This document shows positions 1,092 through 26,851 of a DNA stretch of 33,016 nt, one piece after another. This DNA comes from a virus. Each line of letters starts with the position of its first letter. The first letter of the stretch is position 1. The stretch lies in the IMG/VR virus record IMGVR_UViG_3300008113_000195, positions 1 to 33,016 of that record, one strand, 5' to 3'. The position numbers and the translations under genes were made by a program. The notes beneath the pieces are model-generated. The model searched no databases. It had not been told where the DNA came from and saw only the letters and a list, made by a program, of their open reading frames with translations.

Positions 1092-1529
1092 ATGAACAGC
1101 AAAGTATTACGCCAATTAATCAGAGAAACTATATCTCAATATCTTAAAGAACAAGAAGATTTACCTCCTATTACCCCAGGACCGGGACAAGAACCAGCTA
1201 ATGTTCCTTCACCAGAAGAAGCACCATCAGAAGCTGAAACTCCTGAAACCCCAGCTGGGTCTATTACTAAAGAACAAGCTAAACAATTAATTAAAGATAC
1301 TAAAGGTAAGTTTTTTACTGTAACTTTTATTAAAAAAGATGGTACTACTCGCGTAATGAATGCTCGTTTAGGTGTTAAAGTTTATTTAAAAGGTGGCGAA
1401 TTACCTTACAATCCAGATGAAAAAGGATTAATTCCTGTATATGATGTAAAAACAGGTGGATACAGAATGATAAACGTTAATACTATTACTAAACTAAAAA
1501 TTGGTAATAACGAATATAATGTACAATAA
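1092..1529 (+). CDS. N-terminal helix tag + Pro/Glu linker + SH3-like domain protein
   Basis: This 145-aa protein has three parts. Residues 1-21 form an amphipathic helix (VLRQLIRETISQYLKEQ) with IRE and LKE sites of the kind cut by T4-type prohead proteases. Residues 22-57 are a disordered Pro/Glu/Ala linker. Residues 60-145 form a compact beta-rich domain with VTFIKKDGTTRVMNARLG and a later PVYDVKTGGYRMINVNTI stretch. The last domain resembles the small SH3-like beta-barrel proteins (DUF2693-like) common in Bacteroidetes phages, whose function is unknown. Packaging into the head is inferred from the tag only. The stop overlaps the next start (TAATG), so the two genes are probably translationally coupled. 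Confidence 0.75.
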   Translation: MNSKVLRQLIRETISQYLKEQEDLPPITPGPGQEPANVPSPEEAPSEAETPETPAGSITKEQAKQLIKDTKGKFFTVTFIKKDGTTRVMNARLGVKVYLKGGELPYNPDEKGLIPVYDVKTGGYRMINVNTITKLKIGNNEYNVQ

Positions 1530-1900
1530 TGATTAAGTTAGTAAACATAATCCAAGAAATAGATAGTAATAAAAAATACTACATTGAGTTAATTCCTGTA
1601 GAGGATCTTAAAAAATATCAACAAGTAGAAAAAACTATAAATAAGTTAAAAGACTTAGAAGTAAATATTAACGATATAAACGTTGATAAAATATATGGAG
1701 ATAAAGTTAGACGATATTTTATAGGTACATACAAAGACGGGAGTAGTATCCCGGCTCAATATAAAACTAAAAATGATTTATTTAATCATCCTATGGGGGA
1801 TATTAAAGTAACATTATTTACTAAAGAAGAAGCCGAAAAACAGAAAAATAAAATAGATAATTACGTAAAAGAATTTGTAGCTAATATAAAGATGATATAA
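1529..1900 (+). CDS. Unknown 123-aa protein
   Basis: The ATG overlaps the previous stop codon in a TAATG junction, which fixes the start. The N-terminus (MIKLVNIIQEIDS) looks like a short version of the amphipathic tag seen on other products here and contains an IQE site. The rest is mixed alpha/beta and lysine-rich, with the segment RYFIGTYKDGSSIPAQYKTK followed by a C-terminal helix. No domain is recognised. It probably shares an mRNA with the SH3-like gene and ends before the hairpin pair at 1917-1989. Confidence 0.7.
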   Translation: MIKLVNIIQEIDSNKKYYIELIPVEDLKKYQQVEKTINKLKDLEVNINDINVDKIYGDKVRRYFIGTYKDGSSIPAQYKTKNDLFNHPMGDIKVTLFTKEEAEKQKNKIDNYVKEFVANIKMI

Positions 1901-1916
1901 AAATAAATAATTTATA

Positions 1917-1935
1917 GACCGATTCATAGCCGGTC
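1917..1935 (+). other. Small hairpin GACCG/CGGTC
   Basis: GACCG (1917-1921) pairs with CGGTC (1931-1935) around a 9-nt loop. It directly follows AATTTATA, a variant of the recurrent upstream motif, and precedes the stronger hairpin at 1963-1989. Confidence 0.35.
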
Positions 1936-1962
1936 GCTCGTAAGAGATAAAATTATGGAGCT

Positions 1963-1989
1963 GTGGCCCACCCCTAAAAGGTGGGCCAC
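1963..1989 (+). terminator. Strong hairpin, terminator-like, without a U tract
   Basis: A perfect 10-bp GC-rich stem (GTGGCCCACC, 1963-1972, with its complement at 1980-1989) encloses the loop CCTAAAA. It is followed by CTTAGTTTG rather than a run of T, so intrinsic termination would be weak. It separates 1092-1900 from the dehydrogenase gene. The loop is nearly the same as that of the terminator at 17188-17213. It may instead stabilise or process the mRNA. Confidence 0.55.
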
Positions 1990-2031
1990 CTTAGTTTGAA
2001 AGTCAAAATAAAGATATTAAATTTATAAAGT

Positions 2032-3387
2032 ATGAATAAAAAAATAGTAATCGTAGGTGCTGGTGTTGCAGGTATAAATGCCGCTACCAAATTAGTAGAC
2101 AATGGATACCCAGGTGAATTAATCACTATCATAGATAAAGGCAACGACCCACATAATCGTTTACCTGAAGAGGTAATGACAGGTATGTTAGGAGCAGGTG
2201 GGTGGTCAGATGGTAAACTTACTTATCACACAGCAATTGGAGGTCAATTATCAAAATATTGTGGTGAGGACAAAGCAATGGAATTAATGAAACAAGTAGT
2301 AGATAATTTTACTCGTTTCCATCCTAAACCAGAAGAAATATTCATGTCTGATCCTCAGGAAGAACCTGAATTTATTAAACCATATTTTGGTTTAAGAATG
2401 TTTCCTGTATGGCACATAGGATCCAATTTCTTGCACGAGATTGCTAAAGCATGGTATCAATATTTGTTAGATAAAGGTGTTAAATTTTGTTGGAATTGTG
2501 AAGTTACATCTATTGATTTTGATAAACAAATAGTATTATTTGTCGATAATACAATAGTAGATAGATTTGATAAATTAGGAAAAGAAAGCGGATTGGCTAA
2601 TTTTAGACCTTATATTAACACTGAGATCGAATATGATACTCTCATATTTGCTGTAGGTAAATCAGGTATTGACTTTGCTCAACAGCTATCAAATGATTAT
2701 AAATTACCAACTGAACCCAAATCAGTTCAAATAGGTGTTCGTTTTGAAGCACCACAAAAATATTTCCAAAAATTAATTGATGTCTCTTATGATTTTAAAC
2801 TATATCAAAAATTTGATAACGTATCTTTGCGTAGTTTTTGTACTAACAATAACGCTGCCTATGTGGCTGTTGAAGAAACTTATGGTGATATTACTTACAA
2901 TGGTCATGCGAAAAAAGGTGAAGAGTATCGCAATGATATGACTAATTTTGGTATATTAATGGAAATTAAAGGTATTGAAAATCCGTTTGAGTGGTCACGT
3001 CATGTAGTAGGACAGTTACAAGTTGATGGTAAAGGATTATATTATTCACCAAATAAAACTCGTACGCCAGGTATAACATCAGAAGGCGCAGTTGTATCAG
3101 CATATCAAACTGATGATTTAGAAGATTTTGATAAAGTATTAGGTAAGTATGCATTTTATATAACTAACTTTATTGAACAAATGAATGAAGTATTTAACTT
3201 TGGTGATGACTGGGGCATGTATATACCCGAGGTAAAATATTTAAGTCCTGAACCATTAGTTGATTATAATAGTTTAGCATTAACTGAATATCCAAATGTG
3301 CATTTTGTTGGTGATGCTTTATCAGCTCGTGGTATCACAGTATCAGGAGCGCATGGAATATATGTTGCTGAATATTTATTGGCATGA
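2032..3387 (+). CDS. FAD-dependent dehydrogenase (COG2509-like)
   Basis: This 451-aa protein is a full-length flavoprotein oxidoreductase. It starts with a Rossmann dinucleotide-binding motif (IVIVGAGVAGINAA, glycines 9, 11, 14), followed by a beta strand ending in the acidic IIDKG. It then has GAGGWSDGKLT near residues 54-65, which is typical of the uncharacterised FAD-dependent dehydrogenases of COG2509. The C-terminus carries the second FAD contact, VHFVGDALSARGITVSGAHG (GD at 427-428). Length and both FAD motifs are intact, so the enzyme is probably active; the substrate is unknown. The stop overlaps the next start by 4 bp (ATGA), so it is coupled to 3384-3857. A metabolic enzyme of this kind is unusual in a virion-gene segment and may have come from a host. 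Confidence 0.85.
   Translation: MNKKIVIVGAGVAGINAATKLVDNGYPGELITIIDKGNDPHNRLPEEVMTGMLGAGGWSDGKLTYHTAIGGQLSKYCGEDKAMELMKQVVDNFTRFHPKPEEIFMSDPQEEPEFIKPYFGLRMFPVWHIGSNFLHEIAKAWYQYLLDKGVKFCWNCEVTSIDFDKQIVLFVDNTIVDRFDKLGKESGLANFRPYINTEIEYDTLIFAVGKSGIDFAQQLSNDYKLPTEPKSVQIGVRFEAPQKYFQKLIDVSYDFKLYQKFDNVSLRSFCTNNNAAYVAVEETYGDITYNGHAKKGEEYRNDMTNFGILMEIKGIENPFEWSRHVVGQLQVDGKGLYYSPNKTRTPGITSEGAVVSAYQTDDLEDFDKVLGKYAFYITNFIEQMNEVFNFGDDWGMYIPEVKYLSPEPLVDYNSLALTEYPNVHFVGDALSARGITVSGAHGIYVAEYLLA
3372..3379 (+). promoter_or_regulatory. ATATTTAT motif 4 nt before an ATG
   Basis: The octamer lies inside the last codons of the dehydrogenase gene and ends exactly 4 nt before the ATG at 3384. The same 4-nt spacing occurs at 14379, 16778 (variant), 20648 and 26477. 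Confidence 0.4.
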
Positions 3388-3857
3388 TCCCTGTTACTTT
3401 AACATTATCATCTAAAATACCATTTGGTAAATATAAAAACCGATTAGTATCTGATATAATGATAATTGATCCACAATATCTTAAATGGTTATGGGTTGAA
3501 AAACGCGCCATTGCTCCTGATAATGCATTAGAGCAACGCCTAAACCTAATTCCATCAAATTTTGCGGTAGCAGGAATGAAATTACCTAGAACTAAATTAA
3601 AAGAAAATATGAAAATTAAACAACTACGCGAAGCTATTCGTGAAATAATTCGTAAAGAACTAAACGAAAATCAACCTAAACCAGCTACTACACCAAGTGA
3701 ACCAGCAGTTTTACCTAGACCTAAAGTGACTCCAGACGAACCTAAACGTAGAAGAATTGGTAATCCTGATGTAAAACCTGCTCCTAAAAATTTAAAGGAA
3801 GAGGAAATGATTGATAAGATTACTGCTCGTTTTATGAAAGCTAAAAAAACAAAATAA
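3384..3857 (+). CDS. ExoX-C/DUF3820-like domain joined to a helix-tagged Pro-rich tail
   Basis: Residues 9-42 (KIPFGKYKNRLVSDIMIIDPQY...W) match the short domain found at the C-terminus of exonuclease X and in DUF3820 proteins, whose core is PFGKYKG ... DPxYLxWL. At M76 (base 3609) the frame enters a second module, MKIKQLREAIREIIRKELNE. This is a near copy of the N-terminal tag of the 1092 product and is followed by a proline-rich, basic linker and a short C-terminal helix. Normally this tag sits at a protein's start, so either two genes have fused in frame or the internal ATG at 3609 is used to make a separate 82-aa protein. The start at 3384 overlaps the dehydrogenase stop by 4 bp. The end overlaps the next start (TAATG). 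Nuclease activity is not expected, because the catalytic ExoX domain is absent. Confidence 0.7.
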   Translation: MIPVTLTLSSKIPFGKYKNRLVSDIMIIDPQYLKWLWVEKRAIAPDNALEQRLNLIPSNFAVAGMKLPRTKLKENMKIKQLREAIREIIRKELNENQPKPATTPSEPAVLPRPKVTPDEPKRRRIGNPDVKPAPKNLKEEEMIDKITARFMKAKKTK

Positions 3858-4873
3858 TGAAACGTTTATTAGAAGTAGAATACGAAGATATATTCAGCCC
3901 TGAAACAATGGCTGCCTTAAAAGGTAAGTCAGGTGAATCATTGCGTGCTATGTTAGGTAACAAAAATCTAATGCAAACAATGATGCGTTCTCAGGAATTA
4001 CTAAGTCAAATTATTGAGGCTGAATCTGATTACCGTATTGAATTAGCAATGATAGCTGAAATTATGGCTAGAGAAGCTTACCCTATTTTAGATTATGCTA
4101 ATGTAAAAATAGATGCTAAAATAGTAAGTATGGGTCAAGTTCAACAAAATGAAGATGAAGATGAAATATCTATAGACGAAATACCATCAACTGATACCGA
4201 AGCTATGGAGAAAAAACGCCGTATAATCAACGGTATCACTCAAGGCGCATCAGTACGTGGAACTTTTGGTTTCTTATTATTTAGAGAACATTTAGATGAT
4301 TTAAGTCCGGAATTAGTTGAAAAATACAACGAAATAATGAAACTAGTTTTTGGTATATATGATGATGAGAATGCTATCGCTATGATGTTAGCGGCTCTTG
4401 GTCAAAAACAAAATATTAGTGGTGGATCATCTGAAATGGTGTATGATGAAGAAGAAGATAGATTTGTTATTAAAGCAAGAGCTATATGTTTTCCTATGTT
4501 ATTTCATGAGATAGTAAAAGGATTATATGAAATAGTAGGAACAGAAGGATTTGGAACTGATAAAGAACAAAATAAAGCTATTGTTGGTAAAGTAGATAAA
4601 GTATCAAACGAACCTCGTGATTTTCAATATGGTAAATTTATTTATGATGCTTTATCAAACTTATATAACCAAAGTAATATAGAAGATGCTCGTGTTCGTG
4701 AATTATTCTTTGCTGAAGTATATAAATTAGACGATAAAAATTTCCTTCTATTTATAGAAAACATCATTAATAATAAATTAACCCCAGCTCAAAAGAAATG
4801 GGCAGCAGACACGATGAAAGAAATTGAGGTAGATCTGAAGAAAGATGATACCGAACTTTCAGGCTTGGATTAG
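3857..4873 (+). CDS. Conserved-looking phage protein of unknown function, 338 aa
   Basis: The start is set by the TAATG overlap with the preceding gene. The first residues (MKRLLEVEYEDIF) contain an LLE site and resemble a shortened tag. The protein is mostly helical and acidic, with a low-complexity DEDEISIDEIPS segment near residues 100-112. Two segments look well structured: GTFGFLLFREHLDDLSPELV (about 135-155) and AICFPMLFHEIVKGLYEIVG (about 210-230). I do not recognise a family. The mix of acidic helical core and tag would fit an internal head protein or a DNA-associated phage protein, but this is a guess. A small hairpin follows the stop. Confidence 0.65.
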   Translation: MKRLLEVEYEDIFSPETMAALKGKSGESLRAMLGNKNLMQTMMRSQELLSQIIEAESDYRIELAMIAEIMAREAYPILDYANVKIDAKIVSMGQVQQNEDEDEISIDEIPSTDTEAMEKKRRIINGITQGASVRGTFGFLLFREHLDDLSPELVEKYNEIMKLVFGIYDDENAIAMMLAALGQKQNISGGSSEMVYDEEEDRFVIKARAICFPMLFHEIVKGLYEIVGTEGFGTDKEQNKAIVGKVDKVSNEPRDFQYGKFIYDALSNLYNQSNIEDARVRELFFAEVYKLDDKNFLLFIENIINNKLTPAQKKWAADTMKEIEVDLKKDDTELSGLD

Positions 4874-4889
4874 TGAAAAAGAAATATTA

Positions 4890-4908
4890 ACTTTCGAAAA
4901 AAGAAAGT
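4890..4908 (+). other. Leader hairpin ACTTTC/GAAAGT
   Basis: A 6-bp stem (4890-4895 with 4903-4908) with an A-rich 7-nt loop sits just upstream of the ATG at 4915. It may affect translation or mRNA stability. The stem is weak. Confidence 0.3.
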
Positions 4909-4914
4909 AAAAAT

Positions 4915-5157
4915 ATGACAAGAACTTTTAGAACGAAAGACGGTACTATATTACATTATAGTGACACAACAGGAGTAAATAAGCTCCATAACTGGGATGG
5001 CCCAGCCTTAATCCCTCAAGGTAACATGAAATTAGCAGAATATTATATCTACGGTATTCAATATTCAAAAGAGGATTGGATAGACCGTAAACGTGATACT
5101 AATGGATTACCATGGTTTAAAACCGCTATAGGTAAAAATACAGGAGCAAGAGTTTAA
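4915..5157 (+). CDS. Small protein with NWDGPA / YYIYG motifs
   Basis: This 80-aa product begins RTFRTKDGTILHYSDTTG and contains HNWDGPALI and YYIYGIQYSKEDW. The order of a DGPA turn followed by an aromatic YYxxGxxYSKE strand recalls the short 'HREDGPA ... YLNG' repeats scattered through phage genomes, which have no known function. The gene lies alone between the leader hairpin at 4890 and a clear terminator at 5163-5185, so it is probably a one-gene unit or the last gene of one. Confidence 0.65.
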   Translation: MTRTFRTKDGTILHYSDTTGVNKLHNWDGPALIPQGNMKLAEYYIYGIQYSKEDWIDRKRDTNGLPWFKTAIGKNTGARV

Positions 5158-5162
5158 AAATT

Positions 5163-5185
5163 AGGGTCGTCAAGACCCTTTTTTT
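5163..5185 (+). terminator. Intrinsic terminator
   Basis: A 6-bp stem (AGGGTC 5163-5168 with GACCCT 5174-5179), loop GTCAA, leads into seven T (5179-5185). It follows the stop at 5157 directly. The T run merges with TATCTTTA (5185-5192), a TAnnTTTG-like box just before the ATG at 5197. Confidence 0.8.
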
Positions 5186-5196
5186 ATCTTTATAAC

Positions 5197-5469: not shown

Positions 5470-6153
5470 ATGACAGGAATATATAAAATAACAAATCCTA
5501 AAGGTAAAATTTATGTAGGACAATCTATTAATATACAAAATAGAAAATACCAACATAAACATAAAAGTAAATCTCATATAGGTTCTAAACTATATAATTC
5601 ATATCAAAAATATGGTTGGGAACAACACATATTTGAAATAATTGAAGAATGCAATTTAGAACAATTAAATGAAAGAGAAATATATTGGAAACAATATTAT
5701 TTAGATCAAGTAAATGGAGATTGGAAACAAGTATTGTTTTGTGAATTATACGACAGAGGAACAGGACCTCGATCAGAAGAAACTAAAAATAAAATTAGTA
5801 AATCTAATAAAGGAAAAATAGTTTCTAATGAAACTAAAAATAAAAAAAGAATATCAATGATAGGAAAGTTTCCATCTGAGATAACAAAAGAAAAAATGAG
5901 AAAATCAGCTATAGGAAAATTTAAATCTGAAAGTCATAAAAATAACATAAAATTAAAAAAAGACAATATAATAAAAGGAGTAAGATTAGCTAATAGTAAA
6001 CCAATTAACCAATATAATTTAGAAGGTGATTTTATTCAAGAATGGCCTTCAATTGTTGAAGCTAAAAAATATATAGGAAAAGGAGATATACAGGCTTGCT
6101 GTAAAGGTAAACAAAAAACAGCAGGAGGATTTATTTGGAAATTTAAAATATAA
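5470..6153 (+). CDS. GIY-YIG homing endonuclease with NUMOD3 and NUMOD1 modules
   Basis: This 227-aa protein is a free-standing mobile endonuclease that would cut DNA site-specifically and spread its own gene. The catalytic domain has GIY (3-5), YVG (15-17), the conserved R25 and H29, and the metal-binding Glu in LNEREIYW (E70). Residues 101-150 carry repeated NUMOD3-type DNA-binding units (SEETKNKISKSNKGK and following). Residues 177-225 form a NUMOD1-like DNA-binding helix-turn (KPINQYNLEGDFIQEWPSI ... FIWKF). All modules look intact. It lies between unrelated small genes, starts just after its own ATATTTAT motif, and ends 6 nt before the NTPase gene. Its codons are very A-rich. There is no sign of an intron around it. 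Confidence 0.9.
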   Translation: MTGIYKITNPKGKIYVGQSINIQNRKYQHKHKSKSHIGSKLYNSYQKYGWEQHIFEIIEECNLEQLNEREIYWKQYYLDQVNGDWKQVLFCELYDRGTGPRSEETKNKISKSNKGKIVSNETKNKKRISMIGKFPSEITKEKMRKSAIGKFKSESHKNNIKLKKDNIIKGVRLANSKPINQYNLEGDFIQEWPSIVEAKKYIGKGDIQACCKGKQKTAGGFIWKFKI

Positions 6154-6684: not shown

Positions 6685-6691
6685 TATTTAT
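6684..6691 (+). promoter_or_regulatory. ATATTTAT upstream motif
   Basis: This copy overlaps an ATG at 6690. That makes 6690 an unlikely start and favours the ATG at 6717, which is 25 nt downstream of the motif. Confidence 0.45.
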
Positions 6692-6716
6692 GTATACAGA
6701 AATAAACGCAAACATC

Positions 6717-7613
6717 ATGACCCCGAAACAAATTCGTGCCGTAGTTAAAGAAGTAATATCAGAAGTAGGATTATATACATTAAAAAATCCAACAGATGCC
6801 ACTAAAGGTTTATCGTCAGTAATTGATCCTGATGATAATACAGAAAAATCTTCTGCTTTTCAACAAAAATATAAAAAAGTAACGGAAATGGCTCGTAAAG
6901 CTAAAGGATACCAAATTGTTGATCCTGAATTTGATACCACACCATATGCTACTAAAATGATTAGTGGTGTGTCAGTAGCTGATGTTATTAATTACATTAA
7001 AGAGAATCCAGGTGTAGAAAAGAAAGATATCCAAGATCAATTTAACTTTATTCGTCCACAAATAGCAAATGCGTTAATGAATGGTTTGAAAGATGCCGGT
7101 GTTATAGCTAAAATGGGTGAAGTAGTAGTGGATGATGAAACGGGAGAGACTACAGTAGTTAGTGAACCTGAAACAGTCTCAGGACCACCCAGTATGGAAG
7201 ATTTTTTCATAGGTGGAAGAACAGGTGAATTTTTCCCATCTGGTATGCCTCAACCTGAAGAAGAGGAAGAGCCAGAAATGCCAGAACTACCAATGGACAG
7301 ACCATCAGTAGGAGGATTATCAGATGAAGATTATAATGCTTGGATGGATTATTCTAAATTTAAAGAACGTTTAGCTAGAACTAAAAGTGCATTAACACAA
7401 GCTAAAAAAATGGGTAAAAGTAGAGATGATTTATCATTAGGTTCAAGCGAAGTAGAACGTTTAACTAAATTAAAAGCATCTCTTGAACAACGTGTTCAAA
7501 GTATAATTGATTCAAACGAATACGTTAGAAATAAAGTAGAACAAGAAAAAAACGCTCCATCTGAAGATGAAATAATGGAACGGTTCCAAAAGTTAGCAAA
7601 TATAATAAAATGA
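6717..7613 (+). CDS. Tagged winged-helix / coiled-coil protein with scaffold-like C-terminus
   Basis: I choose the ATG at 6717, not 6690, because the new N-terminus (MTPKQIRAVVKEVISEVG) matches the amphipathic tags of other products and because the ATATTTAT motif overlaps 6690. From this start it is 298 aa. About residues 75-130 form a winged helix-turn-helix (VINYIKENPGVEKKDIQDQF ... GLKDAGVIAKMG, then a beta wing). An acidic linker (EEEEEPEMPELP) and a coiled coil follow. The protein ends MERFQKLANIIK, almost the same as the scaffold C-terminus at 18402 (SRMQKLANIIK). With tag-like sequences at both ends, it could be a prohead core or DNA-binding head protein; this is inference. Its stop overlaps the next ATG by 4 bp. 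Confidence 0.7.
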   Translation: MTPKQIRAVVKEVISEVGLYTLKNPTDATKGLSSVIDPDDNTEKSSAFQQKYKKVTEMARKAKGYQIVDPEFDTTPYATKMISGVSVADVINYIKENPGVEKKDIQDQFNFIRPQIANALMNGLKDAGVIAKMGEVVVDDETGETTVVSEPETVSGPPSMEDFFIGGRTGEFFPSGMPQPEEEEEPEMPELPMDRPSVGGLSDEDYNAWMDYSKFKERLARTKSALTQAKKMGKSRDDLSLGSSEVERLTKLKASLEQRVQSIIDSNEYVRNKVEQEKNAPSEDEIMERFQKLANIIK

Positions 7614-11896: not shown

Positions 11897-12751
11897 ATGA
11901 AAATTAAACACAACAAATTTAAAAACACGGGCATATTATTTGAACTACTTGTTAGACAAATAGCATCCGATACTATATCTAACAAAGACTCAGCAGCTAT
12001 TGATTTAGTTAAGAAATATTTTAACAAAACTGAATTAGCTAAAGAATACAAATTGTATCAAGTTCTTGTAAACTCTAAAGCACTTACTGAAAGTAAAGCG
12101 GAGATATTCATAAATAGTACTCTAAATGCATCATCGCGTTTAAATAAATCTACTTTACGTAAAGAAAAGTATAATTTGATTAAAGAAATTCGCGAGCATT
12201 ACAATATAGAAGAATTTTTTAAAGCAAAAATCAACCACTACTCACAGTATGCTGCTGTGTATAATTTAATAGAGGCTCAAAACTCAAGTGAGTTTGTTGA
12301 ACCTAATCAAATTATAGATAATAAAGTAACATTACTGGAGCATATCACACGTAAAGAAGTAAATAAAGATCAGGTTAAAGACCGTATTCTTGAAGAATAT
12401 GCTAAGATGGATAAAGGTACTCGTTTACTAGCTTACAGAGTATTGCTAGAAAGATTTAACAAAAAATATTCTACTCTGAATAATAAGCAAAAAACAGTAT
12501 TAAAAGAATACATCAACAATATTACCAACACAACAGCATTAAAAGAATTTGTTAACACTCAGTATGCTTTAATTACTAAAGAATTAACAGAACTAGTTAA
12601 AAGTGTTGATGACAAAACAACTCAAATTAAATTAACTGAAGTAATTAATTTACTACAGCCTCTTAATAAAAATCAAAACGTAAAGGACGAAAATATCATC
12701 TCTTTACTCCAGTACCACCAATTAATTAACGAGTTAAATTCTATTAAATGA
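11897..12751 (+). CDS. Helical head-cluster protein of unknown function, 284 aa
   Basis: The product is almost entirely helical and lysine-rich. It opens with MKIKHNKFKNTGILFELLVRQIASD and has further helices such as GTRLLAYRVLLERFNKKYSTLNNKQK near 180-205. There are no cysteines, membrane segments or catalytic motifs I can see. Its fixed place between portal and the protease/scaffold genes suggests a head-assembly role comparable in position to T4 gp67/gp68, although it is much larger and I see no sequence similarity to them. The stop overlaps the next start by 4 bp, so it is coupled to 12748. Confidence 0.7.
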   Translation: MKIKHNKFKNTGILFELLVRQIASDTISNKDSAAIDLVKKYFNKTELAKEYKLYQVLVNSKALTESKAEIFINSTLNASSRLNKSTLRKEKYNLIKEIREHYNIEEFFKAKINHYSQYAAVYNLIEAQNSSEFVEPNQIIDNKVTLLEHITRKEVNKDQVKDRILEEYAKMDKGTRLLAYRVLLERFNKKYSTLNNKQKTVLKEYINNITNTTALKEFVNTQYALITKELTELVKSVDDKTTQIKLTEVINLLQPLNKNQNVKDENIISLLQYHQLINELNSIK

Positions 12752-13857
12752 TGAAAGTATCTTTATTAAAACAGATTATTAAAGAAGAACTAGAAAATGT
12801 TCTTGAAAATGAATCTAGTAACTGGGATACATTATATAATTGGTTAAATATTTATACTAGAAATGATGATAAAGCTAAATCATTTTTATATAAACATAAC
12901 ATAATAAATGGTACTTGGTTAAAAAAAGCACTTGATTCAGGTGAAGTAACTATTGATCAAATAGATAACTTAGCTAAGAATCCTGAAGGTCAAAGCTTAT
13001 CTGATTTATCTATGTATAAAAAATTAATGGGTATGAATGAAGAATCAGCTACTGGCGCTATTGGTGTTGGAGCAGGTCCTATTCAAACCCCATATGCTTT
13101 TGCTCCTAAAGGACAAAAGAAAAATAAAGCAACTAAATACGCTGAAAAAATGGGATTTAAAACAGTTAAAGGTATGCCTAAAAATTCTAAAATGTTAGAT
13201 TATAAAGAACTTTGGAAAGGTAAAAAATCAGCAATGAATGAACAAAATATTAAATACCAAGAATCTGCAAATAATATACTATCAGCAATAAAACCTATTT
13301 TTGAAGAAGCTAAAATAGTTTATTCAGGTAAAAATAAAAATTTAGCCAGAGTACAAATACCTGTTGATTATGCAGATGGTTCTGGATTTATGACTTTAAT
13401 ATGTGGAGAAACTACATCTGGTGATAAACCATATTTTGTTTTAGAAATAGATAATTTAGGAAGAGAAGAAGGATATACTTATTTTAATAATATTGAATCT
13501 TTAATAGAATATATTAAAAGTAGTAAAATAACAGGTGAAGAACCATTTGATTATCCTTTAGAAGAAGTGTTGAATAATCTTATTAAAGAAGAATTATTAA
13601 ACGAAGTATCGTATAATAAATTTAAAAACGAAGTTAAATATAGAACTAAAGCAGAAATGCTTCATAAAAGTATTCGTGAAGTAAAACGTAAATTATCTGA
13701 AGTAGATCAATTAATTGAATATACTACTCGTATTAAACAAGAATTAAGTGAAAACGAAGATGGTACAAACTATTGGAAGCGTAGCTTAAAAGCTATAAAT
13801 GAAATTAGTGAAATATCAAATAAAATTAGCAATAAAATTAAATCAATCTACCAGTAA
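12748..13857 (+). CDS. Tagged head-cluster protein with a possible internal second tag
   Basis: The start is ATGATG at 12748 overlapping the previous stop; either Met could be used. Residues 1-22 are an amphipathic tag (KVSLLKQIIKEELENVLENE) with IKE and LEN sites. Residues 95-140 hold TGAIGVGAGPIQTPYAFAPK and a basic KKNKATKYAEKMG stretch. Residues 165-255 look like a compact alpha/beta domain (ARVQIPVDYADGSGFMTLIC ... YFVLEIDNLGREEGYTYF). From about residue 270 a second tag-like helix appears (EEVLNNLIKEELLNEV), followed by a long C-terminal coiled coil. Repeated (I/L)xE sites suggest cutting into several pieces by the phage's own prohead protease. The function is unknown. It ends in a TAATG overlap with the next small gene. 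Confidence 0.7.
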   Translation: MMKVSLLKQIIKEELENVLENESSNWDTLYNWLNIYTRNDDKAKSFLYKHNIINGTWLKKALDSGEVTIDQIDNLAKNPEGQSLSDLSMYKKLMGMNEESATGAIGVGAGPIQTPYAFAPKGQKKNKATKYAEKMGFKTVKGMPKNSKMLDYKELWKGKKSAMNEQNIKYQESANNILSAIKPIFEEAKIVYSGKNKNLARVQIPVDYADGSGFMTLICGETTSGDKPYFVLEIDNLGREEGYTYFNNIESLIEYIKSSKITGEEPFDYPLEEVLNNLIKEELLNEVSYNKFKNEVKYRTKAEMLHKSIREVKRKLSEVDQLIEYTTRIKQELSENEDGTNYWKRSLKAINEISEISNKISNKIKSIYQ

Positions 13858-16150: not shown

Positions 16151-16771
16151 ATGAATAAGCAATTACTAGTAGATCATATACCGTTCCACGTAGCCAAACT
16201 ACAACCTATTACTGAAGGAAAAGACAGTAAACTAGGCGATGGTTTGATGCGCGTTAGAGGTAAATTACAAGAAGCCGGTGTTAAAAACGGTAATGGTCGT
16301 GTTTATCCTCTTAATGTTTTAAAGGAACAAATAGACAAATATATAAATGGTCCTTTAAAAACTAGAACATCAACAGGTGAATTAGATCACCCTGAATCAT
16401 CTATCATTAATTTAAGTAATGTATCTCACTTAATTACTAAAATATGGTGGGAAGGTAATGATGTAATGGGAGAATTAACTCTATTAAATACTCCATCAGG
16501 TAAAATCGCTCAAGAAATTATTAAAGCTAATATTCCATTAGGTATATCATCAAGAGGTATGGGCTCAGTACGCCAAATAGGTGAAACTGTTGAAGTTCAA
16601 GACGATTTTGAATTACTATGCTGGGATTTAGTTTCAGTACCTAGTACTCCAAACGCATATATGACATTATCTGAAGGTAAACAATATCAATCAGATAAAA
16701 ATTATAGTAAAGTAAACGAATTAATTACAGAAATCATATGTACTCAAACAGGAGTATGTGCTTTGTGTTAA
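16151..16771 (+). CDS. Prohead maturation protease (T4 gp21-like, S78/U9 type)
   Basis: This 206-aa serine protease would sit inside the prohead, cut scaffold, core and capsid proteins and then itself. The GELDHP motif gives catalytic H80, and GISSRG gives the nucleophile at S133 or S134. VRGKLQEAGVKNGNGRVYP (35-53) is the usual N-terminal signature of phage prohead proteases, and LLCWDLVSVPSTPNAYM follows the serine as in the gp21 family. T4 gp21 is 212 aa and prefers (L/I)-x-E sites. It starts 3 nt after the preceding stop and precedes scaffold and capsid genes as in T4. Many neighbours carry IxE/LxE sites near their N-termini. Confidence 0.93.
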   Translation: MNKQLLVDHIPFHVAKLQPITEGKDSKLGDGLMRVRGKLQEAGVKNGNGRVYPLNVLKEQIDKYINGPLKTRTSTGELDHPESSIINLSNVSHLITKIWWEGNDVMGELTLLNTPSGKIAQEIIKANIPLGISSRGMGSVRQIGETVEVQDDFELLCWDLVSVPSTPNAYMTLSEGKQYQSDKNYSKVNELITEIICTQTGVCALC

Positions 16772-16789: not shown

Positions 16790-17146
16790 ATGAAAACACA
16801 ACTAAATGAAATTAAAAGAATGCAGCAATTAGCTGGATTGATTAAAGAAGAATATTCTTCTAATTTTAAAGTAGGAGATAAAGTAAGATTTAATCCTGAA
16901 GTAATGTATGCATATGGATTTGAAAATCCTATAGAATATTATGAAGGTTTAACAGGAGTAATAACACAAATCCAACATTATGACATAATGTCAGATAACA
17001 ATCCAACAGATATATTAAATATAGAATTAAGTAAACCTATCCAACCCCCAGGAGGATATGTTCCTGAACCAGGAGAAGATGCAGAAATGAAAGATATAAT
17101 GTTAGTCAAATCACAAGGTGATTTTGATATGATAACCAAAATGTAA
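16790..17146 (+). CDS. RMQQLAG-tagged small protein, 118 aa
   Basis: Residues 1-21 (MKTQLNEIKRMQQLAGLIKE) form an amphipathic helix ending in an IKE site. This tag is nearly the same as that of the 20660 product and close to the C-terminal end of the scaffold. From residue 25 on (NFKVGDKVRFNPEVMYAYGF ... GLTGVITQIQHYD) the protein is a small beta-barrel, KOW/SH3-like in pattern: a VGDKVRF strand, then a GxxGVIxxI strand. It lies between protease and scaffold, where T4-type phages keep head-internal proteins. A packaged internal protein is the simplest reading, but this is not proven. It is followed by a terminator. Confidence 0.7.
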   Translation: MKTQLNEIKRMQQLAGLIKEEYSSNFKVGDKVRFNPEVMYAYGFENPIEYYEGLTGVITQIQHYDIMSDNNPTDILNIELSKPIQPPGGYVPEPGEDAEMKDIMLVKSQGDFDMITKM

Positions 17147-17364: not shown

Positions 17365-18402
17365 ATGTCAAACAAAAAACTATTTGAAGAGGCTATCGTT
17401 GACGCTAAAGCCGTTCGCGAAGCAGCGTTGTTAAACGCAAAAGAAGCCCTTGAAGAAGCTTTGACTCCAAGTATTCAAAACATGTTAGTCGCTAAATTAA
17501 ACGAGATGGACATGGATGAAGAATATGGAATGGAAGAAGAAGCTATGAAAAAAGGCGAAAAAGAAATGGAAGAAGGATTTACATCATCTCACGAAGAAAA
17601 CAGTGATGCTAATCTTGATTTCAATCTTGAAGAAGAATTCGATCTATCTGCTATTTTAGCTGAACTAGAAGCTGAAGAAACTTTAGAAGAAGCTAAGAAA
17701 GAAGAAGAAAAAGAAGAAGAAGGTGAAGAAGAAGGCGAAGAAGAAACCGAAGAAACTGAAGAAGAAGAAATGGAAGTTAAAGACATGTCTATTGAAGATC
17801 TTAAAGATCTAATTAAAGACATCGTTAGCCAAGAATTGGAAACAGGAGAAATGGGAGCTGAAGCCGGTGAAGAAGAAATGAGTATGGACATGGGTGATGA
17901 AATGGGTGGTGAAGAAATGGAAATGTCTGACGAAGAAGAAATCAATCTTGACGAATTACTAGCTGAACTAGAATCATTAGATGAAAATGAAGAACTAGAA
18001 GAAGCTAAAAAGAAAAAAGTTATGAAAAAAGAGAAAGAAGAAGAGAAAAAAGAAATGAAAGAAGCTATTAACGTAATTAATACACTTCGTAAAGAATTAA
18101 ATGAAGTGAATTTATTAAACGCTAAATTGCTTTACGTTAACAAAATTTTCAAATCTAAAAACTTAACTGAATCTCAAAAATTAAACGTGATTGCATCATT
18201 CGACAAAGCAACTACACCTAAAGAAGCTAAAATGGTTTACGAATCATTAGAAACTACTTTAAGCGCAGTTAAAAAGAAATCACCTATTAAGGAATCTTTA
18301 GGATTTGCTTCAAAAGCAGCAGGTATTGCTCCTAAGAAACAAATCGTAGAGTCAAATGACGTTATTTCACGTATGCAAAAACTAGCTAACATTATTAAGT
18401 AA
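17365..18402 (+). CDS. Acidic scaffold / prohead core protein (T4 gp22-like role)
   Basis: This 345-aa protein lies directly before the capsid gene, as the T4 scaffold gp22 does. The first 50 residues are helical (LFEEAIVDAKAVREAALLNA). Residues 50-235 are extremely acidic, with long Glu runs and two similar blocks (LAELEAEETLEEAKK and LAELESLDENEELEEAKK). The C-terminal third is a helical domain ending SRMQKLANIIK. Acidic, helical, low-complexity composition and many LxE/IxE sites are expected for a core protein that is digested by the prohead protease before DNA entry. The C-terminus matches that of the 6717 product and the N-terminal tags at 16790 and 20660. Expression is probably high: own promoter, leader hairpins and strong Shine-Dalgarno. 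Confidence 0.85.
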   Translation: MSNKKLFEEAIVDAKAVREAALLNAKEALEEALTPSIQNMLVAKLNEMDMDEEYGMEEEAMKKGEKEMEEGFTSSHEENSDANLDFNLEEEFDLSAILAELEAEETLEEAKKEEEKEEEGEEEGEEETEETEEEEMEVKDMSIEDLKDLIKDIVSQELETGEMGAEAGEEEMSMDMGDEMGGEEMEMSDEEEINLDELLAELESLDENEELEEAKKKKVMKKEKEEEKKEMKEAINVINTLRKELNEVNLLNAKLLYVNKIFKSKNLTESQKLNVIASFDKATTPKEAKMVYESLETTLSAVKKKSPIKESLGFASKAAGIAPKKQIVESNDVISRMQKLANIIK

Positions 18403-18427: not shown

Positions 18428-20023
18428 ATGAACATTCAACAATTATTAGAATCATCAAACCAATTTAAATCGGTTCAAGATGACGCAAAACGCCTTCAAG
18501 ACAAATGGGCAAAATCAGGCCTATTAGAAGGTTTAAAAGACAATAACAGCCGTAACACAATGGCTATGTTATTAGAAAATCAAGCAAAACAATTAGTAGT
18601 AGAAACTTCTCAAACTGGTACTCAAGCATCTGGTGCTGGTACTTACAGTGGTGAGAGCTGGAACGGTGTTGCCCTTCCATTAGTTCGCCGTGTATTCGGT
18701 GAAATCGCTGCAAAAGAATTCGTTAGTGTACAACCTATGAACTTACCTTCAGGTCTTGTATTCTATCTTGATTTCAAATATGGTACTGGTGTAAAACCAT
18801 TCGCTACTAACGGTTCATTGTATGGTGCTAACGCAACTACAAACGTAACTGATATCGCTTCAGCTTCATTATATGGTGCTGGTAGATTCGGTTATTCTGT
18901 TAACCAATTCTCAGCTTCTATCGCTGCTACAACTGGTTCAACTAGCTGGGCTACATTTAACTTAGATGCTGATTACACATCTTCATTCTCTACTTACAAA
19001 GTAATTAATGTTCCTCTACCTACTGCTGCTGACCAAAATGGTGTACGCGCGTTTGTATTCACTTCAGGTTCAATTACCGCTACTGATATTTTACAAACTT
19101 ACACTACTGTAGCCAACAACACAGCTTCATTCGTAGTAACTGGTTCATTAGTATCTAATAACCCTACTCAAACTGTAGTATTATTCTACAACGTACAACC
19201 TACAGCTACTTCACGTGGTGATTTCGAAGATGCTAGCGGTGCTGGTTATCCTAACGCTCTTAGCAATTCAGCAATTTCTATCCCAGAAATTAACGTTCAG
19301 TTAAAATCTGAAGCTATCGTTGCTAAAACACGCAAATTGAAAGCTCAATGGACACCTGAATTCGCTCAAGATTTGAACGCTTACCATTCAGTAGACGCTG
19401 AAGCTGAATTAACTGGTATCTTATCACAATACATTTCAATGGAAATTGATCTTGAATTGTTAGATATGTTAATCGAAAACGCTTTCACAACTGAATACTG
19501 GTCAGCAATTAACAATCAAGCTGTAGGTGCTAGTGGTGTAACTAACAACGCTTTAGGTTTCTATAACACTCAAGGTGGTTGGTTCCAAACTTTAGGTACC
19601 AAATTACAGAAAGTATCTAACAAAATTCATCAGTTAACCCTACGTGGTGGCGCTAACTTCTTAGTTACTTCACCTACCGTAGCAACTATCTTAGAATCTA
19701 TCCCTGGATTCGCATCAGATGGTGATGGTGAGAAAATGGAATACAACTTTGGTATCCAGAAAATCGGTAGCTTAAACAGCCGCTACAAAGTATACAAAAA
19801 TCCATACATGACTGAAAACGTAATCTTAATGGGTTACAAAGGTGCTCAGTTCCTAGAGTGTGGTGCTGTATTCGCTCCATACGTTCCGTTGATCATGACT
19901 CCACTTCTGTACGATCCAAATACCTTCACTCCACGTAAAGGTTTGATGACTCGTTACGCTAAGAAGATGATACGTCCAGATTATTATGGGAAGGTATATG
20001 TTGCTGGTTTAAATACTCTTTAA
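18428..20023 (+). CDS. Major capsid protein (T4 gp23-like)
   Basis: This 531-aa protein (T4 gp23 is 521 aa) forms the shell hexamers. The N-terminal 60 residues are helical and look like the removable delta domain. LLE at 48-50 and VVE at 57-59 are candidate protease cut sites, just before the glycine/threonine-rich segment that begins the mature protein. SGESWNGVALPLVRRVFGEI and MNLPSGLVFYLDFKYGTG are typical of gp23-type HK97 folds, as is GFYNTQGGWFQTLGTKLQKV and the C-terminal TRYAKKMIRPDYYGKVYV. Its codon choice uses more C-ending codons than neighbouring genes, as expected for the most highly expressed product. It ends before a tandem hairpin terminator. Confidence 0.95.
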   Translation: MNIQQLLESSNQFKSVQDDAKRLQDKWAKSGLLEGLKDNNSRNTMAMLLENQAKQLVVETSQTGTQASGAGTYSGESWNGVALPLVRRVFGEIAAKEFVSVQPMNLPSGLVFYLDFKYGTGVKPFATNGSLYGANATTNVTDIASASLYGAGRFGYSVNQFSASIAATTGSTSWATFNLDADYTSSFSTYKVINVPLPTAADQNGVRAFVFTSGSITATDILQTYTTVANNTASFVVTGSLVSNNPTQTVVLFYNVQPTATSRGDFEDASGAGYPNALSNSAISIPEINVQLKSEAIVAKTRKLKAQWTPEFAQDLNAYHSVDAEAELTGILSQYISMEIDLELLDMLIENAFTTEYWSAINNQAVGASGVTNNALGFYNTQGGWFQTLGTKLQKVSNKIHQLTLRGGANFLVTSPTVATILESIPGFASDGDGEKMEYNFGIQKIGSLNSRYKVYKNPYMTENVILMGYKGAQFLECGAVFAPYVPLIMTPLLYDPNTFTPRKGLMTRYAKKMIRPDYYGKVYVAGLNTL

Positions 20024-20039: not shown

Positions 20040-20090
20040 TAACCGTAAGGTTAAAAAGAGAATGGCCGGACTTTGTAGTCCGGCCTTTCT
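20040..20090 (+). terminator. Tandem hairpin terminator after the capsid gene
   Basis: A small stem TAACC/GGTTA (20040-20044 with 20049-20053) has a GTAA loop of the stable GNRA class. Next comes a 9-bp stem GGCCGGACT (20064-20072) with AGTCCGGCC (20077-20085), loop TTGT, followed by TTTCTTTTG. An ATG at 20062 lies inside this element and should not be taken as the start of the HNH gene. Confidence 0.85.
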
Positions 20091-20095
20091 TTTGT

Positions 20096-20103
20096 ATATT
20101 TAT
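20096..20103 (+). promoter_or_regulatory. ATATTTAT motif before the HNH gene
   Basis: Copy of the recurrent octamer (with upstream T giving TATATTTA) between the capsid terminator and the ATG at 20110, 6 nt away. Confidence 0.45.
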
Positions 20104-20109
20104 ACACGT

Positions 20110-20676
20110 ATGAAAACATGTAAAAAATGTGGTGTTGATAAACCACTAGATCAATATTGGAAACGCAAAGGAGAAAAAGACGGACTACATCGTTATTGTG
20201 TAGACTGTCAAAAAGTAGAAGGTAAACAATATTATTCTACTCACAAAGACGAACACAATACTCGTACATCAAAATGGAGAGAAGAAAACAAAGAATACCA
20301 TAAAAAATTAGTAAACGAACATTATCATACAAATAAAGACTACTACCGCGAATGGAATAGGTATAAAATGGATACAGACCCACTATTCCGTCTCCGCCAC
20401 GCAATCAACGCTCTCATCAACCACCACCTTAAAAAAGGTAAATCACAAAGTAGTATTGAATATTTAGGTTGTACAATACAAGAATACAAAGAATACCTTG
20501 AACCAATGTTCACACCAGAAATAAATTGGGATAATTATGGTTCATATTGGGAAATAGATCATATATATCCGTTAGCTAAAGGCGGATCATTCCACTACAC
20601 TAATACCCAACCACTTACAATAACTGATAATAGAGTAAAGTCTGATAATATTTATATACATGAAAACAGTAATTAA
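20110..20676 (+). CDS. HNH endonuclease, probable homing type
   Basis: I start the gene at 20110 because the earlier in-frame ATG (20062) lies in the capsid terminator. The 188-aa product has a zinc finger at its start (C4/C7 and C30/C33), a charged helical middle rich in Tyr/Lys/Glu with repeated HxxxxxYYR-like units, and a C-terminal HNH-type core. The core reads WEIDHIYPLAKGG (D150, H151), then TNTQPLTITDNRVKSD (N165 and following). It would nick or cut DNA. Its position right after the major capsid gene and before a small tagged gene is typical of a free-standing homing endonuclease that targets a conserved neighbour. The last 17 bp overlap the next gene's start. Confidence 0.85.
   Translation: MKTCKKCGVDKPLDQYWKRKGEKDGLHRYCVDCQKVEGKQYYSTHKDEHNTRTSKWREENKEYHKKLVNEHYHTNKDYYREWNRYKMDTDPLFRLRHAINALINHHLKKGKSQSSIEYLGCTIQEYKEYLEPMFTPEINWDNYGSYWEIDHIYPLAKGGSFHYTNTQPLTITDNRVKSDNIYIHENSN
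20648..20655 (+). promoter_or_regulatory. ATATTTAT motif 4 nt before an ATG
   Basis: Copy of the recurrent octamer inside the 3' end of the HNH gene, exactly 4 nt before the ATG at 20660. Confidence 0.45.
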
Positions 20677-20950
20677 TGAAATCAAAAGAATGCAGCAGTT
20701 AGCTGGGATTATAAATGAAAACAATAATAGTTTATTAAATACATTATATGATAAAGTTATATTTTATATGGATAATAACTATAACAACAATGAAATTTCA
20801 CATGATGATGTATATACAATAGTAAATGACGTAATCATCCCAAGAAACCCTAACCTAATACCAGGAAATAAATTAAGCAGTAGTGATTTTCGTCAACTTA
20901 TTAACAAAATATCAGACGAATCAGAATATACCTTTATTGAAAATATCTAA
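20660..20950 (+). CDS. RMQQLAG-tagged small protein, 96 aa
   Basis: The first 20 residues (MKTVINEIKRMQQLAGIINE) are nearly the same as the start of the 16790 product. The matching DNA is also close (AAAAGAATGCAGCA then TTAGCTGG), which points to recent duplication or exchange of the tag. The rest differs completely: an Asn-rich helical protein with YDKVIFYMDNNYNNNEISHD and FRQLINKISDESEYTF. There is an INE site at the end of the tag. No domain is recognised. The gene starts inside the HNH gene and has its own ATATTTAT motif and terminator (20975-21001), so it is probably transcribed alone. Confidence 0.7.
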   Translation: MKTVINEIKRMQQLAGIINENNNSLLNTLYDKVIFYMDNNYNNNEISHDDVYTIVNDVIIPRNPNLIPGNKLSSSDFRQLINKISDESEYTFIENI

Positions 20951-24396: not shown

Positions 24397-24403
24397 TAGT
24401 CAT

Positions 24404-24411
24404 ATATTTAT
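24404..24411 (+). promoter_or_regulatory. ATATTTAT motif before the neck genes
   Basis: Copy of the recurrent octamer (ATATATTTATAT) 30 nt before the ATG at 24442. A partial copy, ATATTTAC, follows downstream. Confidence 0.45.
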
Positions 24412-24441
24412 ATGATATAACAATATTTACAATAATATAAT

Positions 24442-25599: not shown

Positions 25600-25602
25600 G
25601 CT

Positions 25603-25941
25603 ATGGTAAAATTACAAAATTTATTACTTGAAGTACTTTCTATATATGAAATAGAAGTAATGATTAAAGTAGAAAGACAAGCAAATAAAGTAGATATCTA
25701 TAATGAAATTAGAGGTATAGATGGAGTTGTTGTTGTTAAAGTAGAACAAAATACTTATCTAAATACTTTAATTACAGATCAAACTGAATATGCTTTACTG
25801 CATATGAAATATATTGTGAGAAAAGATCCAAAAGAATCAATAGCAGAAATTAAAAGAAGAGCCTTAGCGACCCAAAAAATTCCAGGATTATTAAAATTTA
25901 TGCCTAGGTTTAAAACTTTAGAAAAAATAACTACCCTATAA
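25603..25941 (+). CDS. Small alpha/beta (ferredoxin-like) protein in the neck cluster
   Basis: This 112-aa product starts MVKLQNLLLEVLSIYEIEVM; the LLE site and amphipathic start look like a short tag. The core reads beta (EVMIKVERQA), alpha (DIYNEIRGIDG), beta (VVVVKVEQN), beta (YALLHMKYIVR), alpha (SIAEIKRRALAT), which is a ferredoxin-like order. No catalytic motif is visible. It lies 3 nt after the connector candidate and overlaps the next start (TAATG). It may be a neck or tail-completion accessory, but I do not recognise it. Confidence 0.6.
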   Translation: MVKLQNLLLEVLSIYEIEVMIKVERQANKVDIYNEIRGIDGVVVVKVEQNTYLNTLITDQTEYALLHMKYIVRKDPKESIAEIKRRALATQKIPGLLKFMPRFKTLEKITTL

Positions 25942-26477
25942 TGAGTTTATTTGGAGCAAATAGGGATATAAGTCTATTTAGACATATAAATAGAGAATTA
26001 CTCAATGATATCATTGAGCAAAAGGTAGGATATTATAAAATAGTATTGGATCGTTCTTTACCTAACATGTATGGTGAGGCTCCTAAAAAGACATATAATG
26101 ACCCGGTATTATTAAATTGTTTAATTGAACGCGGAGATACTATCTCAACAACAGATGATTTTGGACCTGATATAAATCGTAATATTACTTGCCGCTTTTT
26201 ACGCGATGATCTCGCAGGTATTGACTTAAGCACCGAACTTGGCCCAGATGCTAGAGGCTTTACATATAACATAGTACCTGAGATAGGAGATGTTGTTTTA
26301 TGGAATAACGATTACTATGAAGTAGACAATGTAAACGAAAATCAGTTAGTTGTAGGTAAGGATTATAACTATTCTTATTCAACTAACACAGATAATTTTG
26401 GTTCATCATGGTCGATCATAGTAACATGCCATTATATGAGACCAGAAATATTAGGTATAACTCAAACAAGATTATAA
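25941..26477 (+). CDS. Neck protein candidate (T4 gp14-like role)
   Basis: This 178-aa protein has LFRHINRELLNDIIEQKVGY at the start, then YYKIVLDRSLPNMYGEAPKK, a central beta region (NRNITCRFLRDD), and IVPEIGDVVLWNNDYYEVDN near 112-131, followed by a VVGKDYNY segment. The 'GDxxxWxxxxYEVxxVxExQxxVGKxY' order is what gp14-type neck proteins of T4-like phages show, so I assign that role tentatively. It starts in a TAATG overlap. After it comes the ATATTTAT motif starting at its last stop codon base. Confidence 0.55.
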   Translation: MSLFGANRDISLFRHINRELLNDIIEQKVGYYKIVLDRSLPNMYGEAPKKTYNDPVLLNCLIERGDTISTTDDFGPDINRNITCRFLRDDLAGIDLSTELGPDARGFTYNIVPEIGDVVLWNNDYYEVDNVNENQLVVGKDYNYSYSTNTDNFGSSWSIIVTCHYMRPEILGITQTRL

Positions 26478-26484
26478 TATTTAT
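26477..26484 (+). promoter_or_regulatory. ATATTTAT motif 4 nt before an ATG
   Basis: Copy of the recurrent octamer overlapping the preceding stop and ending exactly 4 nt before the ATG at 26489. Confidence 0.45.
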
Positions 26485-26488
26485 TAAC

Positions 26489-26851
26489 ATGATTAAATTA
26501 TTAGATATATTAAATGAAGCTGAAATCCCTGTAACTGGGAAAAGTGGTGAAAAAGTAGCTGCTTTTAAACCTAAAAAAGGTGATGAGGCTTTTGAAAGAG
26601 GATATAAAAGTATAAAAACTTCTATGGATCCTGAAACCGGCGCTTATACACAAGAGTTTGAAGCACTTCCTAAATTTGATGAAATACGAAGAAATGTTTT
26701 AAAATACAGAAGAGAAGTACAGGCATTTAAATATTCTACTAATGAAGATATAGCTAAAGTAGCTAAAGACGCTAATAGTTATTTATATAAAGCCGCCCAA
26801 ATGATATTAGCATTAGATAAAATGTTAGAATTACAAAGAAAACAACAGTAA
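26489..26851 (+). CDS. Tagged small helical protein, 120 aa
   Basis: I start at 26489 rather than an in-frame ATG at 26408, because the latter lies inside the previous gene and the ATATTTAT motif ends 4 nt before 26489. The N-terminus is then MIKLLDILNEAEIP, a short amphipathic tag with an LNE site. The rest is a helical protein with a basic KPKKGDEAFERGYKSIKTSM segment and a C-terminal helix (ANSYLYKAAQMILALDKMLE). No family is recognised. It is coupled by TAATG to the gp15-like gene. Confidence 0.65.
   Translation: MIKLLDILNEAEIPVTGKSGEKVAAFKPKKGDEAFERGYKSIKTSMDPETGAYTQEFEALPKFDEIRRNVLKYRREVQAFKYSTNEDIAKVAKDANSYLYKAAQMILALDKMLELQRKQQ

Follow-up and report, generated by a model that had tools for sequence, protein, structure and literature searches.

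Modular terminal tags in the head-gene region of a T4-like phage contig and their likeness to the end of the scaffold protein

The IMG/VR record IMGVR_UViG_3300008113_000195 is a viral contig of 33 kb, and the whole of it (positions 1 to 33,016; 33,016 nucleotides), referred to below as the window, was analyzed in this work. It holds the head-gene region of a T4-like phage in T4 gene order: a terminase gene at 8330, a portal gene at 9958, and, on the + strand, genes for an S77 (gp21-type) prohead protease (16151..16771), a gp22-like acidic scaffold (17365..18402), and a gp23-type major capsid protein (18428..20023; phrog_138, E 4.6e-73). The scaffold gene lies between the protease and capsid genes, like the order 21-22-23 in T4. 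A first-pass annotation of the window had already named the protease, and PF03420 (E 3.4e-33) and phrog_207 (E 9e-54) bear this out. By capsid protein, Flavobacterium phage immuto is the nearest named phage (60.6% identity across the entire query). Here, we describe short segments that recur at the N-termini of unrelated proteins in this region and its relatives, and that are probably removable capsid-targeting sequences (CTSs).

The first-pass annotation had proposed that ten proteins of the window begin with one shared amphipathic helix, containing (I/L)-x-E in almost every case. All ten N-termini are present in the list of open reading frames (ORFs), three of them (3609, 6717, and 26489) as internal ATGs inside longer ORFs, and all ten contain [IL]xE within the first 20 residues. 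Nine are indeed tags, but they fall into three classes rather than one. Class A, with the pattern MKxxINEIKRMQQLAGIINE, comprises MKTQLNEIKRMQQLAGLIKE (16790..16849), on a 118-residue protein that has no further family member in the comparison set, and MKTVINEIKRMQQLAGIINE (20660..20719), on a 96-residue protein. Class B, with the pattern LRQLIRE/LLKQIIKEEL and helices such as LRQLIRETIS, comprises MNSKVLRQLIRETISQYLKE (1092..1151), the tag at 3609..3668, MTPKQIRAVVKEVISE (6717..6764), and MMKVSLLKQIIKEELENVLE (12748..12807), the last on a family of 89 in the comparison set. Class C is a ten-residue segment, MIKLxDILxE, with the layout of the T4 tags, and comprises MIKLVNIIQE (1529..1558), MVKLQNLLLE (25603..25632), and MIKLLDILNE (26489..26518). 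All of these are encoded on the + strand. The tenth candidate (3857..4873, + strand) was rejected as a modular tag, since its N-terminus is conserved together with the body, into which it continues unchanged in the homologs (an 11-member family, one member being cut by the locus start). Compared with 375 internal 20-mers of the window, the hydrophobic moment reaches at least the 90th percentile for 1092, 3609, 6717, 16790, and 20660; the other five N-termini are not clearly amphipathic (82nd percentile for 1529, 74th for 12748, 68th for 3857, and 67th for 25603 and 26489).

The bodies behind these tags can be described in several cases. The 1092 product (1092-1529), previously called SH3-like, carries a WYL_2 domain (PF10902, E 1.2e-8), which is an Sm/SH3-like barrel. 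Its structural model has a helix at residues 3-21, joined by a linker, disordered to about residue 50, to a beta body, at a low mean predicted local distance difference test (pLDDT) score of 69.7; a fold search with this model found WYL regulators at E 0.03 only, and the Pfam match is the better evidence. In the model of the 25603 product (mean pLDDT 89), residues 1-9 have a pLDDT below 50, LxE ends at residue 10, and the first strand begins at residue 13. That is, the tag lies outside the fold, and the 1092 model agrees with this at low confidence. The 25603 body is ferredoxin-like by strand and helix order, with no fold match at E <=0.001, and L8 and E10 of its tag are invariant in 15 aligned sequences. 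The tag at 26489 is an internal start of ORF 26408-26851; the body that follows matches all 31 members of family 113, 27 of which carry class C. The tag at 3609 is an internal start of ORF 3384-3857, in which an ExoX-like C-terminal domain (PF20600, E 2.3e-8) is fused in frame ahead of the tagged protein. This ExoX-like part is missing, by eye, in eight of the nine other family members, which begin at or near the tag, and the internal start is therefore plausible. The tag at 6717 is likewise an internal start, within ORF 6690-7613.

The product of this last ORF also ends in the class A core, RFQKLANIIK (7581..7610, + strand), and so does the scaffold of the window, whose C-terminus reads RMQKLANIIK (18370..18399, + strand), with IVE just upstream (the tail after IVE is 18352-18399). 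The N-terminal-only picture of the first-pass annotation had overlooked this. The pattern R[MFW][QK]xLA[GN] plus a few residues forms the C-terminal end of all 92 members of the scaffold family, the window's included, of which 65 come from loci not found via the motif and 27 from motif-found loci. A second list was built from 85 capsid hits, which, minus 10 duplicates, one hit without an upstream gene and one gap, gave 73 genes upstream of a capsid gene. Seven of these were dropped as non-scaffolds (six capsid paralogs or pieces and one 54-residue frame), and the remaining 66 true scaffolds all end likewise; 46 fit the initial pattern, while the other 20, which have Trp in its second position, were added by eye. 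Across 17 aligned scaffolds, E329, R336, L340, A341, and I343 are invariant. The scaffold of Mel-JY01 ends in ERMKKLAGIVK and that of RM378 in ERIKRLAGL. In the family of the 6690 product, a looser form of the motif is C-terminal in 50 of 61 members, and 46 of 61 have a class B or C N-terminus. Trp is found in the tags of 4 of 33 cases in phages with Trp scaffolds vs 0 of 51 in others; this co-variation of scaffold and tag is only suggestive, because it follows lineage. As a side observation, KNV73_gp067 of immuto (YP_010114616.1; L082:25627-26868), annotated as 'DNA polymerase phi-like protein', occupies the scaffold's place ahead of gp23, can be aligned with the scaffolds, and bears the tail motif; it looks like a gp22-like scaffold.

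Several features of the samples define how the counts are to be read. The class A motif was the means of finding loci L086-L202 as well as six of the ten whole contigs from IMG/VR (G001, G002, G006, G008, G026, and G027), and class A counts in them are therefore not frequencies. The position count of 1457 ORFs given below uses protease-fetched loci and stretches of immuto, and the above list of 66 scaffolds mixes both sources. Some loci are pieces of one contig; of identical proteins, only one was counted. Genes were called mechanically (ATG, longest ORF), and regular expressions define the tag classes. In the following, the 11 large contigs are the ten IMG/VR whole contigs and immuto, and the control set without S77 consists of four genomes only (phi38:1, phi14:2, crAss001, and FCL-2).

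In the window, [IL]xE occurs in residues 5-25 of 16 of the 37 called + strand ORFs vs 80 of 353 internal windows (binomial p 0.004), the 16 taking in non-tags such as the terminase and the scaffold. In the 11 large contigs, it occurs in 286 of the 640 genes that lie no more than 30 kb from the protease (internal windows, 1507 of 8352) and in 310 of 1364 genes farther away (2640 of 12826); in the four phages without S77, it occurs at 73 of 323 N-termini (812 of 3745). When true N-termini are counted by family, class A is found in 112, class B in 45, and class C in 33 of 1613 (some loci having been chosen by the class A motif). The corresponding numbers are 2, 4, and 0 of 669 families for false starts at internal methionines, and 0, 4, and 0 of 340 proteins from the phages without S77. 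These two controls, together with prokaryote genomes, rule out chance or composition as the cause.

The class A core is also nearly restricted to protein ends. Among 1457 distinct ORFs, R[MFLI]QxLA[GN] is N-terminal in 57 cases, C-terminal in 46, and elsewhere in 3. A DNA pattern for RMQQLAG gave, among the 128 IMG/VR matches listed (117 loci), 89 N-terminal, 21 C-terminal, and 11 internal matches, and 7 outside ORFs. The same pattern falls at scattered places in prokaryote genomes (80 of 94 stretches: 5 N-terminal, 0 C-terminal, 44 internal, and 31 without an ORF). Relative to the class A Arg, [IL]xE lies at -5 in 77/92 and at +8 in 72/94 (94 body families). Moreover, 111 of 119 families have [ILV]xE within 7 residues after the class A core, with S, N, or A directly behind it in 76. 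A pairwise comparison of N-termini within each genome has little power; counting pairs that score at least 45, it gave a clear excess in G027 (9 N-terminal vs 0 mid and 0 C-terminal pairs), 2 vs 0 and 1 in G019, 1 vs 0 and 0 in G024, 3 vs 1 and 0 in T4, one N-terminal pair each in crAss001 and phi38:1, and none in phi14:2. A tblastn search of 50,697 named phage records with one class A tag as the query gave matches in the four immuto records only, a 25-residue query being insensitive.

The tags are modular. Class A occurs on 94 body families (120 by a different clustering), and on 62 after omitting the motif-search loci while keeping the six motif-found whole contigs. At least two tag classes occur on 15 body families, several of these being borderline B/C calls on one tag (e.g., families 113 and 114). 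For example, family 1490 contains both MIRLVDILKE|AYVDKQGNLIS and KRMQQLAGIKLNE|AYINKQGNLIS, with the junction exactly after [IL]xE. In the alignment of family 1257, to which the 1092 protein of the window belongs, the tag is class B in the window and G019 and class A in G026, G027, and L132. Family 1618 has five A and five B tags, family 1619 has A and B tags in tandem on a single protein, and class B swaps with class C on one body in, e.g., families 244, 236, and 1157. Such exchange is direct evidence, at the sequence level, of tag modularity, and it suggests that the classes are used equivalently.

Class B is the weakest of the tag classes. Its enrichment is lower (the above 45 of 1613 families vs 4 of 669 and 4 of 340), and its regular expression includes non-tags, because it matches a protein next to a baseplate gene and the N-terminus of a terminase. 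It is conceivable, though less likely than not, that only classes A and C are CTSs and that class B is an ordinary amphipathic oligomerization or assembly helix of some head and tail proteins; the tandem arrangement in family 1619 would fit this explanation. However, class B substitutes for class A on the same body (families 1257, 1618, and 1619) and for class C on others (e.g., families 244, 236, and 1157), which speaks against that explanation.

Classes A and C are clustered near the head genes. In the 11 large contigs, the 717 genes within 30 kb of the protease bear 23 A and 45 C tags, and the 1902 genes more than 30 kb away bear 13 A and 8 C tags. S77 is found in all 10 tested motif-found contigs of at least 75 kb (L171 and L176 left out). 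The nine tested contigs lacking S77 have lengths of 44-71 kb; none matches the capsid protein of the window, and two have only spurious motif matches. Since they also have no capsid-protein match, the seven smaller motif contigs without S77 are taken as fragments. The first-pass annotation had set in advance a comparison with phages that lack the protease, and, to the extent covered, its outcome favors the annotation: none of the 403 genes of the four control phages has a class A tag. Because the protease and the lineage coincide, this is not an independent test. With a looser C pattern, the numbers of C and A N-termini per contig are 6-15 and 2-8 in the ten IMG/VR whole contigs, 8 and 2 in immuto, 5 and 0 in Mel-JY01, 4 and 0 in T4, and 0-1 and 0 in the four controls without S77.

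Alternatively, the shared motif might serve as a protease exosite instead of docking proteins to the capsid, with scaffold and cargo both being S77 substrates that share a recognition helix. In agreement with this, the motif adjoins [IL]xE in cargo and lies downstream of one in many scaffolds, and class A co-occurs with S77. However, the class A core is not found in the sequence of the window's major capsid protein, which is an expected S77 substrate, and in T4, according to a review, CTS targeting and processing depend on different residues (PMC9026906). We consider the exosite explanation unlikely.

A still less likely explanation is that the conservation of the N-termini is a nucleic-acid effect, arising from a promoter cassette that recombines or from a signal for translation start. 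Synonymous codon identity exceeds the prediction from codon usage by at least 0.1 at 7 of 18 tag positions; Arg codons reach 0.73 vs 0.35 expected, and Glu at -3 reaches 1.00 vs 0.74. In addition, A is favored upstream at -6, -3, and -2. Because of these over-alike codons, some tag copies may have spread as DNA. However, codon identity is near or below expectation at the other 11 positions, the rest of the 30 upstream bases show only a weak A/T preference, and the same peptide ends the scaffold and the 6690 family at the C-terminus. As an explanation of the conservation itself, the nucleic-acid effect is thus hardly credible.

Another possibility is that the tags direct proteins elsewhere, such as to a membrane, the tail, or a host partner, and that the protease site is there by accident. 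Membrane anchoring is a common role of amphipathic helices, and [IL]xE is frequent by chance. This explanation, however, does not account for the sharing of the motif with the scaffold, the clustering near head genes, the fixed offsets of [IL]xE, or the LxE that is invariant in the 15 aligned sequences of the 25603 family, and we regard it as very improbable.

The tags are best read as removable CTSs, with class A docking at the scaffold-tail site and S77 releasing the cargo, and we consider this reading of the sequences probable. During prohead assembly, the tag would dock the attached protein in the core as it forms. Class A would dock via R[MFWL]QxLA[GN]I, the short motif that also closes the gp22-like scaffold; given this identity of the class A core and the end motif of the scaffold, cargo would enter by occupying scaffold-tail sites. 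Candidate docking partners are the shell protein, the scaffold, or another core protein. After shell closure, S77 would cut at the [IL]xE that follows the cargo tag and, in many scaffolds, perhaps also ahead of the tail. The tag would then depart as a peptide, and the body would remain in the head and presumably be injected along with the DNA. The observation in the first-pass annotation is partly confirmed: it is mostly right and extends beyond the window, although one listed start has no tag and class B is less certain. The modular cargo system that the annotation envisaged, as a broad version of the T4 CTS, finds partial support at the sequence level, with modular tags, [IL]xE, the protease, clustering, exchange, and the joint occurrence of class A and S77 in its favor.

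Several observations weigh against this reading. Amphipathicity is not clear for four of the nine tags. Furthermore, [IL]xE is frequent by chance, occurring in about 20% of 21-residue windows, and the signal therefore lies in its excess near head genes and in the motif. Upstream of the scaffold tail, [IL]xE is found in 77 of 92 scaffolds vs 50% of random 16-mers, an enrichment that is too weak to count as evidence, and even [ILV]xE is missing there in 9 of 92. Mel-JY01 has the scaffold tail yet no class A N-terminal tag, and the gp22 proteins of T4 and Syn33, which were examined, are without the tail motif. The class B match on a protein encoded next to a gene that is annotated as baseplate in immuto, and the terminase match of class B, belong here as well. 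As for the bodies, Pfam searches with 150 cargo representatives matched 11 families, ten of them in a single member: one ART-PolyVal, one WYL_2, a weak Zeta toxin/AAA match in one protein, and domains of unknown function. With so few matches, an injected function is mostly unsupported. Finally, no virion proteomics or cleavage data were found for these phages; among the papers listed for immuto, none is about its virion proteins, as judged by title.

In kind, the proposed system is a known one, namely the CTS of T4 (IPI, IPII, IPIII, and Alt, cleaved by gp21 at L/I-x-E), with which it shares a short N-terminal propeptide up to [LI]xE, unrelated bodies, and a gp21-type protease. Here, the segment is likewise short (about 10-20 residues), N-terminal, and outside the folded body; it is attached to unrelated bodies in phages that also encode S77; and it ends at [LI]xE by definition in class C, in 15 of 15 aligned members of the 25603 family, and in 72 of 94 (thus not all) class A families at +8. 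The layout of class C is, by eye, the same as that of the T4-type MKTYQEFIAE and MAKINELLRE; class A is unlike the T4 CTS, and the class A motif was looked for in T4 and not found. Two T4 proteins, which we take to be IPII and IPIII in keeping with the T4 review, start with MKTYQEFIAE|A. The differences from T4 are that the tags occur on far more body families, that at least three classes replace one another, and that the class A core is the C-terminal motif of the scaffold. That review describes the T4 CTS as defined by experiment, in the same layout as these tags, and already proposes it as a route by which T4-like phages take in various proteins (PMC9026906).

Other systems are similar in part. 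In phage P1, the N-terminal 30 residues of DarB suffice to bring a reporter to the capsid, although this is shown for one large protein (PMC9024508). Phages phiKZ and SPN3US have several internal proteins with removable N-terminal propeptides, including two paralogs with an identical 15-residue N-terminus; however, several propeptides exceed 100 residues, the cleavage motif is AxE/SxE, and there is no confirmed gp22 counterpart (PMC5694885). In engineered loading of P22, described in PMC9962691, cargo enters through fusion to the C-terminal part of the scaffold protein. That system is man-made and uses a long scaffold piece, whereas here a natural short motif is used, mostly at the N-terminus and with a protease site. 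Polyvalent proteins resemble the cargo in that they have effector domains predicted to be packaged, among them ART-PolyVal, which is also present on one class C cargo; they are multidomain proteins of 2 to 15 domains, whereas the tagged proteins are mostly small, and no multidomain layout was seen among the 150 cargo representatives. The cargo in question (G026:C1:4514-4900, L294), a class C-tagged ADP-ribosyltransferase of the ART-PolyVal type (E 2.1e-10), is a possible counterpart of T4 Alt, which is a packaged ADP-ribosyltransferase (PMC5512222). In the open-access literature searched, we did not find the breadth, the interchangeable classes, the likeness to the scaffold tail, or the motif letters described here.

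Cargo loading by copying a scaffold terminus could even be a general rule of T4-like heads, a proposal that we put forward tentatively, as falling a little short of an even prospect. In this clade, the copied terminus would be R[MFW][QK]xLA[GN]I at the C-terminal end of the scaffold; in T4, the sequence MKTYQEFIAE|A resembles, by eye, the gp22 N-terminus MLKEQLIAE|A. If the rule is true, a gain of about 20 residues could make the product of any gene packaged. The tail of the scaffold may predate the tags, as Mel-JY01 and RM378 both possess a related one and class A tags are missing from Mel-JY01. If the CTS reading is right, a 20-residue signature reveals from sequence which proteins a large uncultivated group of T4-like phages brings into cells, a set that is otherwise hard to see, few of the 150 representatives matching Pfam. 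In addition, the binding partner of the T4-type CTS becomes directly testable, since scaffold tail and tag should compete for one site, and several interchangeable natural tags would be available for loading proteins into phage heads.

Some further features of the window and its relatives were observed. Several relatives have a tandem pair of gp23-type capsid genes (G002 97902-101301, L030, L050, and L054), perhaps including a gp24-like vertex paralog. In Mel-JY01, a ribosomal protein S21 gene (L239:3188-3415) sits between the prohead protease and scaffold genes. Within the head region of the window, the ORFs at 5470-6153 and 20062-20676 are, by eye, homing-endonuclease-like (GIY-YIG-like and HNH-like). 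The stretch 28119-33015 contains ORFs that, by eye, are tail-fibre-like, with many TGS/SGS/ASYA repeats, the last ORF being open at the window end.

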